A stretch of 48,448 bases of DNA, taken from an uncultured Enterorhabdus sp. (GTDB taxonomy: Bacteria; Actinomycetota; Coriobacteriia; Coriobacteriales; Eggerthellaceae). The DNA lies in the NCBI GenBank assembly GCA_947573925.1, contig CANPHS010000003.1:1-48448 (forward strand), given 5' to 3'. A program made the position numbers and the translations under genes. Shown here piece after piece: positions 10,915 through 48,446 of this stretch; within the stretch, counting starts at the first letter, position 1; each line of letters begins with the position of its first letter. The notes below the pieces were generated by a model that worked only from the letters and a program-made list of their open reading frames with translations, was not told the origin of the DNA and did not search any database.

Positions 10915-10949
10915 CTTGAAGAAAAACTGGCGGAGGAGGAGGGATTCGA
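10915..10949. repeat. Partial tRNA-Ser 3' end / extra att-like copy
   Basis: 35 nt identical to 11084-11118, including 22 nt of the tRNA-Ser 3' end. It is followed by unrelated sequence, so it is not a tRNA. It probably marks an older integration scar 169 bp outside the present attachment site. Confidence 0.75.
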
Positions 10950-11096: not shown

Positions 11097-11122
11097 TGGC
11101 GGAGGAGGAGGGATTCGAACCC
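11097..11122. other. attL: Prophage left attachment site (26-bp core)
   Basis: TGGCGGAGGAGGAGGGATTC and the next 6 nt are identical to the 3' end of tRNA-Ser at 48354-48379. The match ends exactly at the next base. This defines the integration core. An Int-arm-like TGTTGCGC lies at 11161 and a short hairpin GTCCCGG-TT-CCGGGAC at 11204, just past the integrase stop. Confidence 0.88.
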
Positions 11123-11230: not shown

Positions 11231-12349
11231 CTATGAACCGCCCATGGCCGCGTCGATGATGTCCGCGTCCCCGCGCAGGTCGGCCAGCTTCGGCTTGACG
11301 TATCGGTTGTAGGTGGTGGACGTGTCGCAGTGCCCCATCCACTTGGCCAGCCGGGCCACGTCTATGCCGGCGTTGATGCACGACGTGCCGAAGCTGTGGC
11401 GCATGGAGAACTGCGTGAGGTGCGGAAGCGGCTCGCCGTTATCGTAGCGCAGGCTCGCCCCGAACACCCGGGCGATGCGCTTGCGGGCGGTGGAGGGGCG
11501 CATCCTGGCGCCCTTGGAATCCACGACCACCGGCCCATCCCCGCCGCCCCAGGCCTCTATGCGCCGCAGGGCGTGGGAGGTCATGGGCACCGGGCGCACC
11601 GCCTTGGGGGTCTTCGGGTCTCCCAAGACCGGCTCACCCTCCCCCTGGGTGTACGCCTGCACGACCTGGATGCGGCGCTCGCCCGGGAAGACCGTCTCCC
11701 AGTCCAGTCCCAGCACCTCCTCCTTGCGCAGCCCGAAGCACAGGCCGAGCACGCACATGCGCTCCTCGGGCGTGTTGGGATAATGCTCCTCCATGAAGTC
11801 CAGCACCTTCTGTATCTCCGCGAAGGTTGACAGCCACACGCCGAAGTGGTCGTCCGGGTGCTGCGCCGCCTTGGGGTAGCTGTAGGTGAAGCCGGCGGGA
11901 TTCACGGGCATGGCGCCCATCTCAACCGCCAGGGAGAGCACCGAGGAGAGCGTCTCGCGGGCGTTGGTGGCCACCTTCTTGGAGCTGCACGAGGAGATCA
12001 TGCGCTGGATGCGCAGCCTGTCCAGGTCCTCCAGGGCCACGTCACCGAAGGCCGGCAGCAGCCTCAGGTTCAGATCCCGGTTGTATCCCTTCACCGTGGT
12101 GGGCCGCAGGGCCGCCTTCTGGGGCCAGAAGTACTCGTCCACGAACTCCCTGAACGTGATGCCGCCGTAGGACTTGCCCTGGAGCCGTTCCTTCAGCAGG
12201 AGCAGCTTGCGCTCTGCCGCCTCGGCGTCCTTCTTCCTGCGGTGCGTGGAGGTGCGCCGATCCGGCGATCCGTCCAGCCTCCTGCCCACGGTCACGTCGG
12301 CGATCCAGCCGCCCTCGGGCCGCTTCCTCACGGACATGGTACAATGCAC
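11231..12349 (-). CDS. int: Prophage tyrosine integrase
   Basis: A 372-aa tyrosine recombinase with an N-terminal arm-binding domain, a SAM-like core-binding domain (about 60-150) and a C-terminal catalytic domain. I see the first Arg (LGLCFGLRKEE), FSMRHSFGT (second Arg present; the usual first His is replaced), MGHCDTSTTY and the nucleophile Tyr in NRYVKPK. The gene lies next to attL and reads toward it, as expected for the lysogeny integrase. The tracker start is a GTG; an ATG at 12337 (SVRKRPEGGW) is an equally likely start. It catalyses insertion and excision at the tRNA-Ser 3' end. Confidence 0.92.
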   Translation of the reverse strand: MHCTMSVRKRPEGGWIADVTVGRRLDGSPDRRTSTHRRKKDAEAAERKLLLLKERLQGKSYGGITFREFVDEYFWPQKAALRPTTVKGYNRDLNLRLLPAFGDVALEDLDRLRIQRMISSCSSKKVATNARETLSSVLSLAVEMGAMPVNPAGFTYSYPKAAQHPDDHFGVWLSTFAEIQKVLDFMEEHYPNTPEERMCVLGLCFGLRKEEVLGLDWETVFPGERRIQVVQAYTQGEGEPVLGDPKTPKAVRPVPMTSHALRRIEAWGGGDGPVVVDSKGARMRPSTARKRIARVFGASLRYDNGEPLPHLTQFSMRHSFGTSCINAGIDVARLAKWMGHCDTSTTYNRYVKPKLADLRGDADIIDAAMGGS

Positions 12350-12473: not shown

Positions 12474-12572
12474 GTGAGAACGCTAGCCTTCCTTGCCTCG
12501 TGGTACATCGCCTGCATCCTCCTGGCCCTCGGAATCACCGCCGCCGGCTACCCTGTTCCACCGTTCGGATAG
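12474..12572 (+). CDS. Possible 32-aa membrane peptide
   Basis: A GTG start with AGGAG 6 nt upstream encodes VRTLAFLASWYIACILLALG and a short tail: one membrane helix. It is too short for the ORF track. It runs antisense to the last 90 nt of the minus gene 12483-13031 and lies just after the GCGACAC element. The ribosome site and the hydrophobic core are seen; expression is unproven, and the antisense overlap is a reason for doubt. Confidence 0.3.
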   Translation: MRTLAFLASWYIACILLALGITAAGYPVPPFG

Positions 12573-13031
12573 GGGCTTGACGAACGGCTTCATGACCGAG
12601 AAGAGCCCTTCGAGCATCAATCCGCCGATGAACCATGTGAACAGGCTCTGAGCCAGTCCGAGGACGCTCATCTGCCAACCCTGCGACACCCCGTAGAGCA
12701 CGTACAGGAGCCAGATGACCATAGTCAAGGCAAAAGCGGGGACGGCACGCACGAGAACCCCAACCGTCACAGCAACCGCCGTCTTTCCGTTCAACCGCGC
12801 ATCTAGCCTTTTCAACACCTTTTTCTCGTAGTCGTCCACTAGGACGCTGACAAAGGCCTTGCGATCCGTGGGGGTTTCCCTTAGGCGCCGTATTATCTCC
12901 AAATCCTTCAGGGTCGCATTGCGCCATGTAAGCTCAGACAGGATCCCCGTGCCGAGGTAACAGAGGGCACCGACGGCGAGCACTAGGGCGATGAGCCACA
13001 GGGGCAACCCACTGCCATCAAGTGAAACCAA
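12483..13031 (-). CDS. Prophage membrane protein in the lysogeny module
   Basis: A 182-aa protein with an N-terminal membrane helix (LPLWLIALVLAVGALCYLG), a cytoplasmic helical stretch rich in charge (about 35-85), then two or three more helices (about 88-145) and an acidic tail. I do not recognise the family. It begins with TTG after GGAGGTG. It sits with the lysogeny genes on the minus strand, so it is probably expressed from the prophage; such genes often serve superinfection exclusion or host fitness (inference). Confidence 0.65.
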   Translation of the reverse strand: MVSLDGSGLPLWLIALVLAVGALCYLGTGILSELTWRNATLKDLEIIRRLRETPTDRKAFVSVLVDDYEKKVLKRLDARLNGKTAVAVTVGVLVRAVPAFALTMVIWLLYVLYGVSQGWQMSVLGLAQSLFTWFIGGLMLEGLFSVMKPFVKPLSERWNRVAGGGDSEGQEDAGDVPRGKEG

Positions 13032-13062
13032 CCCGCGTCACCTCCCCACTCCATCTCTCCGG

Positions 13063-13635
13063 CTAGAACGTGAGGGAAATCGGGGCCTCGGCAACAACGT
13101 CTACTGAGGATCCGAGCACGACGAACTCCAGGTTCATGGACACGCTCTTGATCTCGTCGGTACTGGAGATGTTGGCCTGCTTCTGACTCAGCATGAACTG
13201 CGCAACCGCGCTCTTGCCCGCCTGTATCTCGGCACCGCCCACGGAATCGATGTCGAAGTCGTTGACCGCAAGCGTTCCCTGCTCCGCGATGCAGTTCACA
13301 TCCTGGCCGGTCTTATTCTCCACGACCAGGCTGAGAATGGACATGCCGGACACGTCCACATTCTCCAAGCTACCGAAGGTCACCTTCATGTCGTCACCGT
13401 CGTAGAGCACCTGGCCCTCCTGGCCCTGGGCGCCGTCCTGCGGCTCGGCCGCCTGCTCGGCCGCCTGATCGCTCGGCTGGGCTGCCGGGGCGTCACCCGA
13501 GACGAGACCGGTCACGCCGCCGTTGGTCGCCTTCTCCACGTTGGCGCCGAAGAAGAACACCCCTACTCCGCACACGATGACGAGCAACGCGATCAACACG
13601 TTGGCGAGGCATCCTTTTCCACTTCCATTTGCCAT
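13063..13635 (-). CDS. Membrane-anchored secreted protein in the lysogeny module
   Basis: A 190-aa protein with an N-terminal signal or anchor helix (CLANVLIALLVIVCGVGVFFF), a Pro/Gln/Ala-rich linker (about 45-70) and a C-terminal beta-rich, Ig-like domain (VTFGSLENVDVSGMSILSLV ...) similar in layout to the DUF4352/DUF5067 exported domains. GGAG is 6 nt upstream of the ATG. It starts 3 nt after the repressor stop, so it is co-transcribed with the repressor and expressed in lysogens. A lysogenic-conversion or exclusion role is inferred. Confidence 0.7.
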   Translation of the reverse strand: MANGSGKGCLANVLIALLVIVCGVGVFFFGANVEKATNGGVTGLVSGDAPAAQPSDQAAEQAAEPQDGAQGQEGQVLYDGDDMKVTFGSLENVDVSGMSILSLVVENKTGQDVNCIAEQGTLAVNDFDIDSVGGAEIQAGKSAVAQFMLSQKQANISSTDEIKSVSMNLEFVVLGSSVDVVAEAPISLTF

Positions 13636-13638
13636 GAC

Positions 13639-14313
13639 TTACTCCATTTCCCTCGGGGACTGGTACCAAACAATTACGCCGGGTATCTCCACGGCGTGGT
13701 CGCTGTCGCGCCTTATGATGATGTCCTCGTGCTCGGGGTTGTGGGACTCCGGCGAGAGGATCATCGTGTTCGCGGTCAGCCTGAGCCGGCGAACTATGTA
13801 GTCGGATCCGTCAACGGACGCGATCACGATGGAGTTGTCCCGCGGCTCCTTCTTCTTCGACACCACGAGGTCGCTGCCCTCGGGGAACGCCTTGTCCATG
13901 CAGTCGCCCTCGCTGGACACCACGAAGCACTCGGGGTCTGATTCCAGGATGAAGTCCGGTACCTTGACCATGGTGGCCTCGTCGTAAGTTTCCGGCTCGG
14001 TGAGCACACCGGCGTGGACGCGCCCGAGCCTGGGGGCCAGGCCCATCTTCATGCCTACAGCGGGGCGGGCGTTCTGCGGCATTGCCGGAACGGTTCCGTG
14101 TTCCTTCGCCGCGAGGCCGTAGTTCGAGGACAGGATGTCGTCCTCAACCAGGTTGAAGTACGCGCAGATGTTGCTCAGCGCCTCCTTGCGGGGCTTCGAT
14201 CCCTTGCGCCACCCGGTCACCGCGCCTGGTGTCACCTCGGCGATGCGAGCCAGGTTGTCCTGCGTGATGTCGTACTTGACCAGCAAGGCGTCTATGTTCT
14301 CTGCAACTCCCAT
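13639..14313 (-). CDS. Phage repressor, HTH_XRE plus S24 domain with altered dyad
   Basis: A 224-aa CI/LexA-type repressor. Residues about 1-65 form an XRE helix-turn-helix (YDITQDNLARIAEVTPGAVT). A linker carries the Ala-Gly cleavage-like site (GRVHAGVL). The S24 peptidase-like domain follows. Where LexA and CI have the nucleophile Ser in GDSM, this protein reads GDCM; where they have the catalytic Lys, it reads YIVRRL. Both residues of the dyad are therefore changed, so RecA-stimulated self-cleavage may be lost. Start ATG 14313 has GAGG 7 nt upstream. It is transcribed divergently from the Cro-like gene. Confidence 0.88.
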   Translation of the reverse strand: MGVAENIDALLVKYDITQDNLARIAEVTPGAVTGWRKGSKPRKEALSNICAYFNLVEDDILSSNYGLAAKEHGTVPAMPQNARPAVGMKMGLAPRLGRVHAGVLTEPETYDEATMVKVPDFILESDPECFVVSSEGDCMDKAFPEGSDLVVSKKKEPRDNSIVIASVDGSDYIVRRLRLTANTMILSPESHNPEHEDIIIRRDSDHAVEIPGVIVWYQSPREME

Positions 14314-14358
14314 GGCCAACCTCATTCATAAAATCTCAACTGATTGCTATATTCTACC

Positions 14359-14388: not shown

Positions 14389-14403
14389 TTTAGTTTTTCT
14401 AAA
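14389..14403. promoter_or_regulatory. Candidate repressor operator O2
   Basis: TTTAG-TTTTT-CTAAA palindrome. It overlaps a possible plus-strand promoter (TTTAGT, 17 nt, TACGAT) of the Cro-like gene. The same sequence recurs at 14685. Confidence 0.65.
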
Positions 14404-14444: not shown

Positions 14445-14684
14445 ATGCCAAAGAAGAGTTCTCTCAAGAGCTCGCAGTTCCGGGCCGCTCGCGGGGCGTC
14501 CTTGATGACCCTTGAACAAATAAAAACCGCCGCTGGCGTGGGGTCTATCAATACCTATATCGCTCATGAAGAAGAGCCTAGCGACTTCCGGTTGAGCGAG
14601 ATCGAGGGCATGTACCGCAGCATGGAAGAACCCGCAAGGACGCTTTTGCGGGATGCCGTCTGCGAAATTTTTTTGCCTTCGTAA
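14445..14684 (+). CDS. Small Cro-like DNA-binding protein
   Basis: A 79-aa protein in the position of Cro, divergent from the repressor. The basic N-terminus and the segment MTLEQIKTAAGVGSINTYIA look like a helix-turn-helix. A strong ribosome site (AAGGAGG) precedes the ATG by 6-7 nt. It is probably the early switch protein that represses the lysogeny promoter (position-based inference; no firm family match). Its stop codon overlaps operator O3. Confidence 0.7.
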   Translation: MPKKSSLKSSQFRAARGASLMTLEQIKTAAGVGSINTYIAHEEEPSDFRLSEIEGMYRSMEEPARTLLRDAVCEIFLPS

Positions 14685-14701
14685 TTTAGTTTTTCTAAAT
14701 T
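14683..14701. promoter_or_regulatory. Candidate operator O3
   Basis: AATTTAG-TTTTT-CTAAATT, with 7-bp arms; it contains the 15-nt O2 sequence in full. It lies between the Cro-like gene and the next gene, so the repressor may control the early operon at two points. Confidence 0.65.
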
Positions 14702-15426: not shown

Positions 15427-15502
15427 GGCCCCGTCGCCCAACGGAGAGGGCAACGGCCTCCTAAGCCGGACGGTGCGGGTTCGAGTCCCGCCGGGGCCGC
15501 CA
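15427..15502 (+). tRNA. Phage tRNA-Arg(CCT)
   Basis: A 76-nt cloverleaf: acceptor GGCCCCG/CGGGGCC, D-arm GCCC...GGGC, anticodon loop CTCCTAA (anticodon CCT, reads AGG), T-arm GCGGG-TTCGAGT-CCCGC, and encoded CCA. It lies inside the early operon. AGG is frequent in the phage genes (for example CAG AGG CAG AGG GCG AGG in the minor capsid gene) while the host genes here prefer CGC, so it may supplement decoding. Confidence 0.93.
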
Positions 15503-15510
15503 AATTTTTC

Positions 15511-15556
15511 AAATGAGTGTTACTTTCCGAGTTTTACCAGATCAGATAGGAGGAGA
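15511..15556 (+). repeat. 46-bp direct repeat, copy 1
   Basis: Identical to 17595-17640 and ends with TAGGAGGAGA as the ribosome site of the next gene. In both copies it also contains an ATG-led reading frame (MSVTFRVLPDQIGG) in frame with the downstream gene. Confidence 0.9.
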
Positions 15557-17058: not shown

Positions 17059-17600
17059 CGAGGAAGGGCGCGAGGCAGCGCGAGTGGACGGTGGCAGAAC
17101 TCCAGCTGCTCAGGGACAACGCGGGGAAGGTGCCCCGCCGCGAGCTGAGCCGGATGCTGAAGCGCGGGGCAGGGTCGGTGAAGCAGCAGGTGTACCGCAT
17201 GCGGGCGCAGGGCGAGGACATTACCCTGCGGTGCTTCCGCAGCAGGCTGTCCACGTGCCCCGCCTGCGGCGCCCTGCGATCCCGCATGGGCAGCGAGGGC
17301 ATCTGCGAGCCGTGCCGCAGGAGGAGGCAGCTGGCCAAGGTGCACGAGCGCATCTCCCACCTGCTGGCGCAGCTGCCCCCTGATGAGCGGGCCGTCTACG
17401 ACGACACCGAGGCCGAGACCGAGTCCTCCCTCGACCCCATGCCCCCTCCCCCGCCCCTCGTCGGCCTGACCGCCTACGAGCGAGAGAGGGCCCTGGAGGC
17501 CCGCGAGATCGCCGTGGAGGACTGGCTCGCCCGAAACCTCAGGCGGCAGGTAAAGGCCGCCCAGAAGCGCAAGGAGCGCATCGCGAAAAAACTGAAATGA
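17055..17600 (+). CDS. Phage HTH / zinc-ribbon protein
   Basis: A 181-aa basic protein. Residues about 10-55 look like a SANT/HTH fold (REWTVAELQLLRDNAGKVPR). A treble-clef or zinc-ribbon pair of CxxC motifs follows (CPACG at about 77, CEPC at about 91), then a Pro-rich linker and a basic helical C-terminus. Probably a DNA-binding early regulator (inference). The ATG overlaps the RusA stop. Confidence 0.65.
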   Translation: MTRKGARQREWTVAELQLLRDNAGKVPRRELSRMLKRGAGSVKQQVYRMRAQGEDITLRCFRSRLSTCPACGALRSRMGSEGICEPCRRRRQLAKVHERISHLLAQLPPDERAVYDDTEAETESSLDPMPPPPPLVGLTAYERERALEAREIAVEDWLARNLRRQVKAAQKRKERIAKKLK

Positions 17601-17640
17601 GTGTTACTTTCCGAGTTTTACCAGATCAGATAGGAGGAGA
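17595..17640 (+). repeat. 46-bp direct repeat, copy 2
   Basis: Identical to 15511-15556. It overlaps the stop of the preceding gene and supplies the ribosome site of the ParB-like gene. Confidence 0.9.
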
Positions 17641-25001: not shown

Positions 25002-25189
25002 GCATGGCCGAATTGTTTGTCGCATGCATCTCCGTCTTCGGCCTTATCGTTCTCTTCGTCGTCCTCTTCGCGGCCGCCGTGTCTGTTGGCATCTTGCTCT
25101 GCGCCACGCTGTGGGCGCTCGTCAAGCCGTTGCTCGCAGGAGCCATCGACGCCTGGATGGAGTGGTTCGAGCGGAGGACGGAATGCTAG
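24998..25189 (+). CDS. Small phage membrane protein
   Basis: A 63-aa protein with one or two long membrane helices (LFVACISVFGLIVLFVVLFA, then LLCATLWALVKPLLAGAI). Unknown; it overlaps both neighbours. Confidence 0.55.
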   Translation: MSMAELFVACISVFGLIVLFVVLFAAAVSVGILLCATLWALVKPLLAGAIDAWMEWFERRTEC

Positions 25190-25284
25190 CCCGCGCCGCC
25201 ATGGCGGCGGTGCTCGTGCCCGTGGGTGTGGTGTGCTGGATGTCGTGGAGCGAAGGAAGGAGGTGCAACTGGTGGGCAAGGTAG
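25183..25284 (+). CDS. 33-aa membrane peptide
   Basis: Too short for the track in this frame: MLARAAMAAVLVPVGVVCWM and a basic Cys/Trp tail. CGGAGG lies 5 nt before the ATG, which overlaps the previous stop. One membrane helix. It may be a coupled leader to the methyltransferase gene, whose start it overlaps. Confidence 0.4.
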   Translation: MLARAAMAAVLVPVGVVCWMSWSEGRRCNWWAR

Positions 25285-26291
25285 TGGACTGCTTCGCCGG
25301 CGGGGGCGGCGCCTCCACCGGCATCGAGGCTGCCTTGGGCAAGCCGTGCGACATAGCCGTCAATCACGACCCCAAGGCCATCGCGATGCACCGGGCGAAC
25401 CACCCGCGCACGCACCACGTGACCGAGGACATCTTCGAGGCCGATCTTCGGCACCTCGTGGGCGACGAGCCGGTGGACGTGATGTGGGCCAGCCCGGACT
25501 GCACGAGCCATTCCCGGGCCAAGGGAGGGGCGCCGCGCCTGTCGGGCCTGCGGATGCTGCCCTGGGCCGTGCACAAGCACGCGAGCGAGATCAAGCCAAA
25601 CGTGATCTTCATGGAGAACGTGGCCGAGATACAGAAGTGGGGGCCGCTCGGCTCCGACGGGCGGCCGATCAAGGCCCGCGAGGGCGAGGAGTACAACCGC
25701 TTCGTGGAGGCCATGGGAGAGCTGGGCTACACCTTCGAGTGCCGCGAGCTGTCGGCCTGCGACTACGGGGCGCCGACCACCCGCCGCCGGTGGTACGCCG
25801 TGCTCAGGCGCGACGGGCTGCCAACCCGGTGGCCCGAGCCGACCCACGGGGACGGCCTGTTCGGCGAGCCCTACGTGCCGGTGTCGGAGTGCATCGACTT
25901 CTCGGACACCGGGGAGTCGATCTTCGGCCGCAAGCGCCCCCTGGCCGAGGCCACCATGCGCCGCATCGCCAGAGGGCTGCGAAAGTTCGTGCTGGACGAC
26001 CCGGAGCCGTTCCTGGTGCAGATCGGCTACGGGGAGCGCCCGGGCCAGGCGCCGAGGATAGGGTCGGTGCGCGAGCCTCTGGGCACGGTGGTGGCCCAGG
26101 GCGTCAAGCACTACCTGTGCACGCCGTTCGTCACGAAGTTCTACGGCACGAACACCGGCCACAGGGTGGACGAGCCGCTGCACACCATCACAGCCTCGTC
26201 GGGCCACCTCCCGCGAGGAGACGAGCCTCGCCGCGGAGGAGAGGTTGGGCTAGCGACACAGTTGAGACCATGCAGGTGCGCGGGGTTCTGA
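25272..26291 (+). CDS. DNA cytosine-C5 methyltransferase, C-terminally shortened
   Basis: A 339-aa protein with motif I (DCFAGGGGASTGIEAALG), the catalytic Cys of motif IV in ASPDCTSHSRAKGG (a PDC variant of PC), the ENV motif VI (FMENVAEIQKWG) and a motif VIII-like TRRRWYAVLR. The target-recognition region continues to HTITASSGH. After that, the expected motifs IX and X (the RxLTxRE...QGFP and GNAV type) are absent and the last 35 residues look unrelated. It may be inactive or split. It could protect phage DNA against restriction. GTG start 9 nt after AAGGAGG. Confidence 0.78.
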   Translation: MGKVVDCFAGGGGASTGIEAALGKPCDIAVNHDPKAIAMHRANHPRTHHVTEDIFEADLRHLVGDEPVDVMWASPDCTSHSRAKGGAPRLSGLRMLPWAVHKHASEIKPNVIFMENVAEIQKWGPLGSDGRPIKAREGEEYNRFVEAMGELGYTFECRELSACDYGAPTTRRRWYAVLRRDGLPTRWPEPTHGDGLFGEPYVPVSECIDFSDTGESIFGRKRPLAEATMRRIARGLRKFVLDDPEPFLVQIGYGERPGQAPRIGSVREPLGTVVAQGVKHYLCTPFVTKFYGTNTGHRVDEPLHTITASSGHLPRGDEPRRGGEVGLATQLRPCRCAGF

Positions 26292-48353: not shown

Positions 48354-48379
48354 TGGCGGAGGAGGAGGGATTCGAACCC
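48354..48379. other. attR: Prophage right attachment site (26-bp core)
   Basis: The 3' end of tRNA-Ser (including CCA), identical to 11097-11122. The prophage end therefore restores an intact tRNA. Confidence 0.88.
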
Positions 48380-48446
48380 TCGTCACCGGGAGCACCGGTG
48401 AAACGGTTTTCGAGACCGCCGCATTCAACCACTCTGCCACCCCTCC
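48354..48446 (-). tRNA. tRNA-Ser(CGA)
   Basis: A complete 93-nt tRNA: acceptor GGAGGGG/CTCCTCC, anticodon loop CTCGAAA (anticodon CGA, reads TCG), a long variable arm (CACCGGTGCTCCCGGTG), T-arm GAGGG-TTCGAAT-CCCTC and encoded CCA. The prophage is inserted at its 3' end. Confidence 0.95.

Follow-up and report, generated by a model that had tools for sequence, protein, structure and literature searches.

Can a repressor of the LexA/CI type still cut its own chain when both residues of the catalytic dyad have been replaced and, if so, by what chemistry? LexA-like proteins are described as serine peptidases whose Ser-Lys dyad is highly conserved (PMC7101444). A sequence-only reading of the 48,448-nucleotide stretch of DNA from an uncultured Enterorhabdus sp. 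analyzed here (the window) had pointed out a putative phage repressor with Ser-to-Cys and Lys-to-Arg substitutions at this dyad and a retained Ala-Gly cleavage-like site, and had proposed either a non-cleavable, antirepressor-dependent protein or a Cys-based mechanism.

The gene product combines an N-terminal HTH_26 domain (PF13443) with a C-terminal Peptidase_S24 domain (PF00717; E=1.1e-15). Its AlphaFold2 model, obtained with a 92-sequence alignment, has a mean pLDDT of 90, with the minimum (61-65) at residues 101-120, the span containing the cleavage loop. In Foldseek searches, the model matches LexA (Thermotoga, E. coli), lambda CI and UmuD', with E-values of about 1e-8 to 1e-6 for LexA and lambda CI. 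By both fold and domain content, this protein belongs to the Peptidase S24/LexA-CI superfamily. The Table gives the longer reading frame; the real start is probably the ATG at 14313 (224 aa), as chosen in the sequence-only reading, because homologues open with MGxPENID and GAGG lies 6 bases upstream of that codon.

Table. Positions in the window of the repressor gene, its critical residues and the associated switch and integration features
Feature	Position	Strand	Description
Repressor gene, HTH + S24	13639..14325	-	228 aa from ATG 14325; Pfam, AlphaFold2, Foldseek
Cys142 (TGC)	13900..13902	-	position of LexA catalytic Ser119, EGDCM motif; alignment, codon check
Arg179 (CGC)	13789..13791	-	position of LexA catalytic Lys156, YIVRRL motif; alignment, codon check
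Ala105-Gly106	14008..14013	-	predicted scissile bond, equivalent to LexA Ala84-Gly85; GRVHAG; alignment
His104 (CAC)	14014..14016	-	P2 of cleavage site; invariant in Cys class (58/58), absent from Ser-Lys class
Divergent cro-like gene	14445..14684	+	79 aa; many relatives carry a homologue in the same divergent arrangement
Predicted operator	14389..14403		TTTAGTTTTTCTAAA, between repressor and cro-like gene
Second predicted operator	14685..14699		identical TTTAGTTTTTCTAAA, just downstream of cro-like gene
Tyrosine integrase	11231..12349	-	Pfam
attL	11097..11122		26-bp core identical to 3' end of tRNA-Ser
attR	48354..48379		26-bp core inside 3' end of tRNA-Ser(cga) (48354-48446, -)

Besides terminase, portal, major head, tape measure and tail genes, the apparently intact prophage enclosed by the att sites encodes RusA, RecT, a DnaC-like loader and a methyltransferase, together with a holin and a product that matches peptidoglycan hydrolases. 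With a divergent cro-like gene and predicted operators beside the repressor, and an integrase and att sites in the same element, this is an ordinary lysogeny switch. Across 0.95 Mb of repressor-centered loci, all other matches to TTTAG-N5-CTAAA adjoin a repressor or a cro-like gene, and a relative with 79% identity (L006) has the operator-like sequence TTTAGTAAAACTAAA. That the gene encodes the master repressor (CI) of a Coriobacteriia prophage is part of an overall explanation that we consider reasonably probable. The host genome encodes a Ser-Lys LexA and RecA; the actinobacterial LexA-box pattern CGAACNNNNGTTCG is absent from the window and from the genome, and its genome-wide absence makes it uninformative on LexA control.

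Several other features of this element were observed. Just beyond attL, at 10928-10949, 22 bp of the att core recur as a second, partial copy, which may be the trace of a previous integration into the same tRNA-Ser. A 46-bp perfect direct repeat (AAATGAGTGTTACTTTCCGAG...) at 15511-15556 and 17595-17640 makes two different phage genes begin alike (MSVTFRVLPDQIGG); the repeats flank about 2 kb containing RusA and an HTH_17 gene, and a tRNA-Arg(cct) (15427-15502) lies just upstream of the first copy. Between the repressor and the integrase, two predicted membrane or exported proteins without family matches (12483-13635) are candidate lysogenic-conversion or superinfection-exclusion factors: that at 12483-13031 is 97% identical to a protein in viral contig L052, and that at 13063-13635 is 54% identical to one in L019 that adjoins another Cys-type repressor. 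A Lar-type restriction alleviation protein (PF14354; 24375-24704) adjoins the phage DNA methyltransferase (25017-26291).

Alignment with E. coli LexA, in which phmmer and MAFFT agree on the residue equivalences, bore out both the dyad substitutions and the retained Ala-Gly site. No alternative Ser or Lys at the catalytic positions emerged when the repressor was realigned, and the structural comparison suggested in the sequence-only reading, run on the AlphaFold2 model, recovered the folds of both LexA and CI. The protein is thus S24/LexA-like by fold and by its Ala-Gly linker site but falls outside the Ser-Lys definition by its catalytic residues. Nor does it resemble non-cleavable CI proteins, in which nucleophile and site are lost: here, Cys and HAG are kept and co-conserved. 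Two features had been overlooked, namely, the invariant His at P2, where E. coli LexA has Ala83, and the retention of Arg179 in dead relatives.

Homologues were collected from whole genomes, named genome contigs and viral contigs; close relatives were found in the Coriobacteriia Adlercreutzia, Gordonibacter, Collinsella, Olsenella and Atopobium. Removal of duplicates left 155 unique S24 domains, the majority of them from Coriobacteriia, which were aligned together with E. coli LexA and scored at three positions. P2 His, Cys and Arg occur jointly in 58 of these proteins, and 52 have an AAG/SAG/AGG site with Ser and Lys. A recognizable site is missing from 23 proteins with another residue and Arg, from 12 with Ser and Arg, and from 8 that retain Cys, including one truncated fragment and three proteins with a displaced His; 3 rare mixed combinations make up the rest. 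None of the Ser-Lys proteins in the aligned set has a P2 His, and all 24 additional S24 proteins (20 from other Actinomycetota and 4 phage repressors) are Ser-Lys proteins without it. When viral contigs were searched with the window repressor alone, no match was found; INPHARED phage records yielded distant matches only (<34% identity), and the four examined (Lactobacillus JNU_P9, Marinitoga, a faecal phage clone and Staphylococcus phage 47) have Ser-Lys. The Cys-His-Arg clade is provisionally, and apparently, confined to Coriobacteriia, the scan of genome contigs beyond Actinomycetota having used one Cys-containing motif.

Within the Cys class, whose members mostly share 30-50% pairwise identity with the window protein, His, Cys, Arg and the P1' Gly are conserved in 100% and the P1 Ala in 93% (weighted), four members having HPG, HMG (twice) or HTG instead. 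The dyad change is not a chance event, since 58 diverse proteins all have the Cys, the Arg and, ahead of them, the His, and none of the Cys-class proteins that retain the site has reverted to Ser, although Ser is one base away from Cys. Exceptional combinations were also seen: in four Cys-bearing proteins without any such His (L126, L128, L196, L200), the site or the G-x-C motif is broken; two proteins (L167 and L177) show the opposite intermediate, Ser and Arg with an intact SAG site; and a distant phage repressor (L073) has Cys and Lys with a normal SAG site, from which it follows that Cys arose at the nucleophile position more than once. Glu occupies the nucleophile position, and Arg that of Lys, in a second S24-like protein of the same genome (L003, G000:C120) and in relatives (L170, L171, L158 and L181), all of which have RSG in place of AG; they represent a conserved and apparently non-cleaving regulator.

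In the phylogenetic tree, the Arg/Cys-type group (83 rows) is split from the Ser-Lys proteins at 100% SH-aLRT, and the window repressor falls, with its P2 His, Cys and Arg, in the single Cys-His-Arg clade. Because the Cys class forms one supported clade, the origin of this combination counts once and replication comes from losses alone. In the best tree, which was built quickly and has many weak branches, deep ones included, Cys was lost in about six lineages inside the clade, and His was lost in all of them; no protein in the aligned set kept His after the loss of Cys. An independent-pairs test had too few supported contrasts for significance. A Pagel-type comparison of dependent and independent trait models in the 80-row clade coupled Cys to the P2 His (LR 25.5, p 4e-5, 4 df; LR 26.5 in a first run), with likelihood-ratio p-values that are conditional on the quick tree and a linker alignment that is uncertain among degenerate members. 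Coupling was also found to G80 (LR 24.4), G117 (LR 13.5), A84 (LR 13.1) and G85 (LR 11.9), and was not significant for 19 other conserved columns or for Arg at the Lys156 position (LR 1.1). In the fitted rates, loss of His precedes loss of Cys and not the reverse. The coupled residues are thus those of the cleavage motif and of the loop at the active site, the pattern expected if self-cleavage is under selection.

From these comparisons, we consider it fairly likely that this clade switched its self-cleavage chemistry from Ser-Lys to Cys, with the window repressor as a member in which a His of the cleavage site assists. Cys142 would attack the Ala105-Gly106 bond in its own chain, and His104, at P2 on the cleavage loop, would give or take a proton when the loop docks, making the reaction a substrate-assisted, single-turnover one. 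Arg179 presumably stays protonated, and so could not simply replace Lys as the general base, but may hold the site together or stabilize the thiolate. Cleavage would part the HTH from the dimerizing domain and induce the prophage, the trigger being possibly a RecA filament or possibly another, non-SOS signal. The His could serve docking or a cofactor rather than proton transfer.

One lineage bears directly on the role of the imidazole. In L125, L129 and L198, VTCMG replaces HxG, so that Cys stands in place of the P2 His; the nucleophile Cys is kept, and His takes the place of Arg. L117 and L121, which form the sister lineage, have HMG together with Arg. His has thus left P2 and emerged at the former Lys position; although a single event, this is what one would predict were the imidazole the important element. 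A more specific formulation, in which these LexA-fold proteins are cysteine proteases cutting themselves with substrate assistance, the catalytic P2 His leaving with the product and having moved to the former Lys position in one lineage, is one that we put forward tentatively, as somewhat less probable than not.

How do other explanations fare against the same observations? The Cys-Arg change might have abolished self-cleavage altogether, leaving induction to an antirepressor or to dilution, as in phage 186 and Gifsy-type phages. The replacement of Lys by Arg does remove the known general base, and degenerate relatives in the same clade, those with another residue or Ser, all with Arg and without a site, suggest that non-cleavable repressors are viable in these genomes. 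It is these relatives, however, that lost the site, whereas the 58 Cys-Arg-His proteins all keep the P1' Gly and nearly all the Ala-Gly bond, and no antirepressor was recognized among the prophage genes, several of which have no family match. The comparative evidence argues against a dead, antirepressor-dependent protease, and we regard this explanation as unlikely. Of the two possibilities raised in the sequence-only reading, the Cys-based mechanism is favored, given that Cys and Ala-Gly are kept together and Cys-less lineages lack the site, whereas the non-cleavable alternative better describes the degenerate sister class.

It seems likewise improbable that the classical dyad geometry persists with Arg substituting for Lys, at high pH or with RecA, the P2 His being a residue of subsite or RecA-docking specificity. 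In its favor, the fold and site are conserved, and His disappears together with the other site residues, which is how a specificity residue would behave; cleavage of LexA K156R at high pH is a lead that is not counted as evidence here. Yet every relative in the clade that lacks Cys and the site retains Arg, whose conservation is therefore independent of cleavage, and in one lineage His was relocated to the very position of the base. As Arg is kept even in dead relatives, Arg179 is a clade marker, probably with a structural or electrostatic role, and is probably not the catalytic element. Least likely, in our view, is a sensor (thiol redox, metal or heme) made up of Cys142 and His104 and acting by altering repressor conformation or gating cleavage, for example in response to oxygen or oxidants: both residues are invariant, the cleavage loop docks beside the nucleophile in the LexA fold and the hosts are mostly gut anaerobes, but coupling to Cys extends to no other conserved Cys, His or acidic residue, a metal site with 3-4 ligands is not evident, and the joint loss of the scissile Ala-Gly and Cys points to cleavage.

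The proposed Cys-His chemistry can be set against several known systems. LexA, lambda CI and UmuD share with the window repressor the S24 fold (with an HTH in LexA and CI), an Ala-Gly type scissile bond and the G-x-nucleophile-M motif, and the role of repressor in a divergent switch also has its counterpart among them; the repressor described here differs in having Cys for Ser, Arg for Lys and an invariant P2 His. Phage 186 CI has altered catalytic residues, has lost the cleavage site and is non-cleavable. In LexA of Synechocystis PCC6803, which has Gly-Gly and Asp, the cleavage site is lost as well (PMC3091678). Both have the LexA/CI fold with altered catalytic residues but, unlike the window repressor, resemble its degenerate sister class. 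IrvR of Streptococcus mutans, a RecA-independent LexA-like regulator, is also a CI-like S24 repressor outside the standard SOS scheme, but it keeps and needs Ser224-Lys260, whereas in the window repressor the dyad itself is changed (PMC7101444). A precedent for the chemistry is subtilisin H64A, where the catalytic imidazole that the enzyme lacks is provided by a His at P2 of its substrate, which raised activity 400-fold (Carter and Wells; PMC12018205); that system is an engineered Ser protease with a different fold that works in trans, whereas the one proposed here would be natural, intramolecular and Cys-based. A literature search on S119C/K156R LexA, S60C UmuD and Cys-type S24 proteins returned nothing usable.

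The Cys-His-Arg clade would break the Ser-Lys rule for LexA-like proteins, would show how a self-cleaving switch can exchange its nucleophile within an unchanged fold, and would be a natural case of substrate-assisted autoproteolysis. The clade supplies its own controls in the form of Ser-Lys, Cys-Arg-His, degenerate and His-swapped proteins. For the prophages of gut Coriobacteriia, including relatives of Gordonibacter, Adlercreutzia, Collinsella and Olsenella, this would mean that many could answer to a non-SOS or differently tuned signal.
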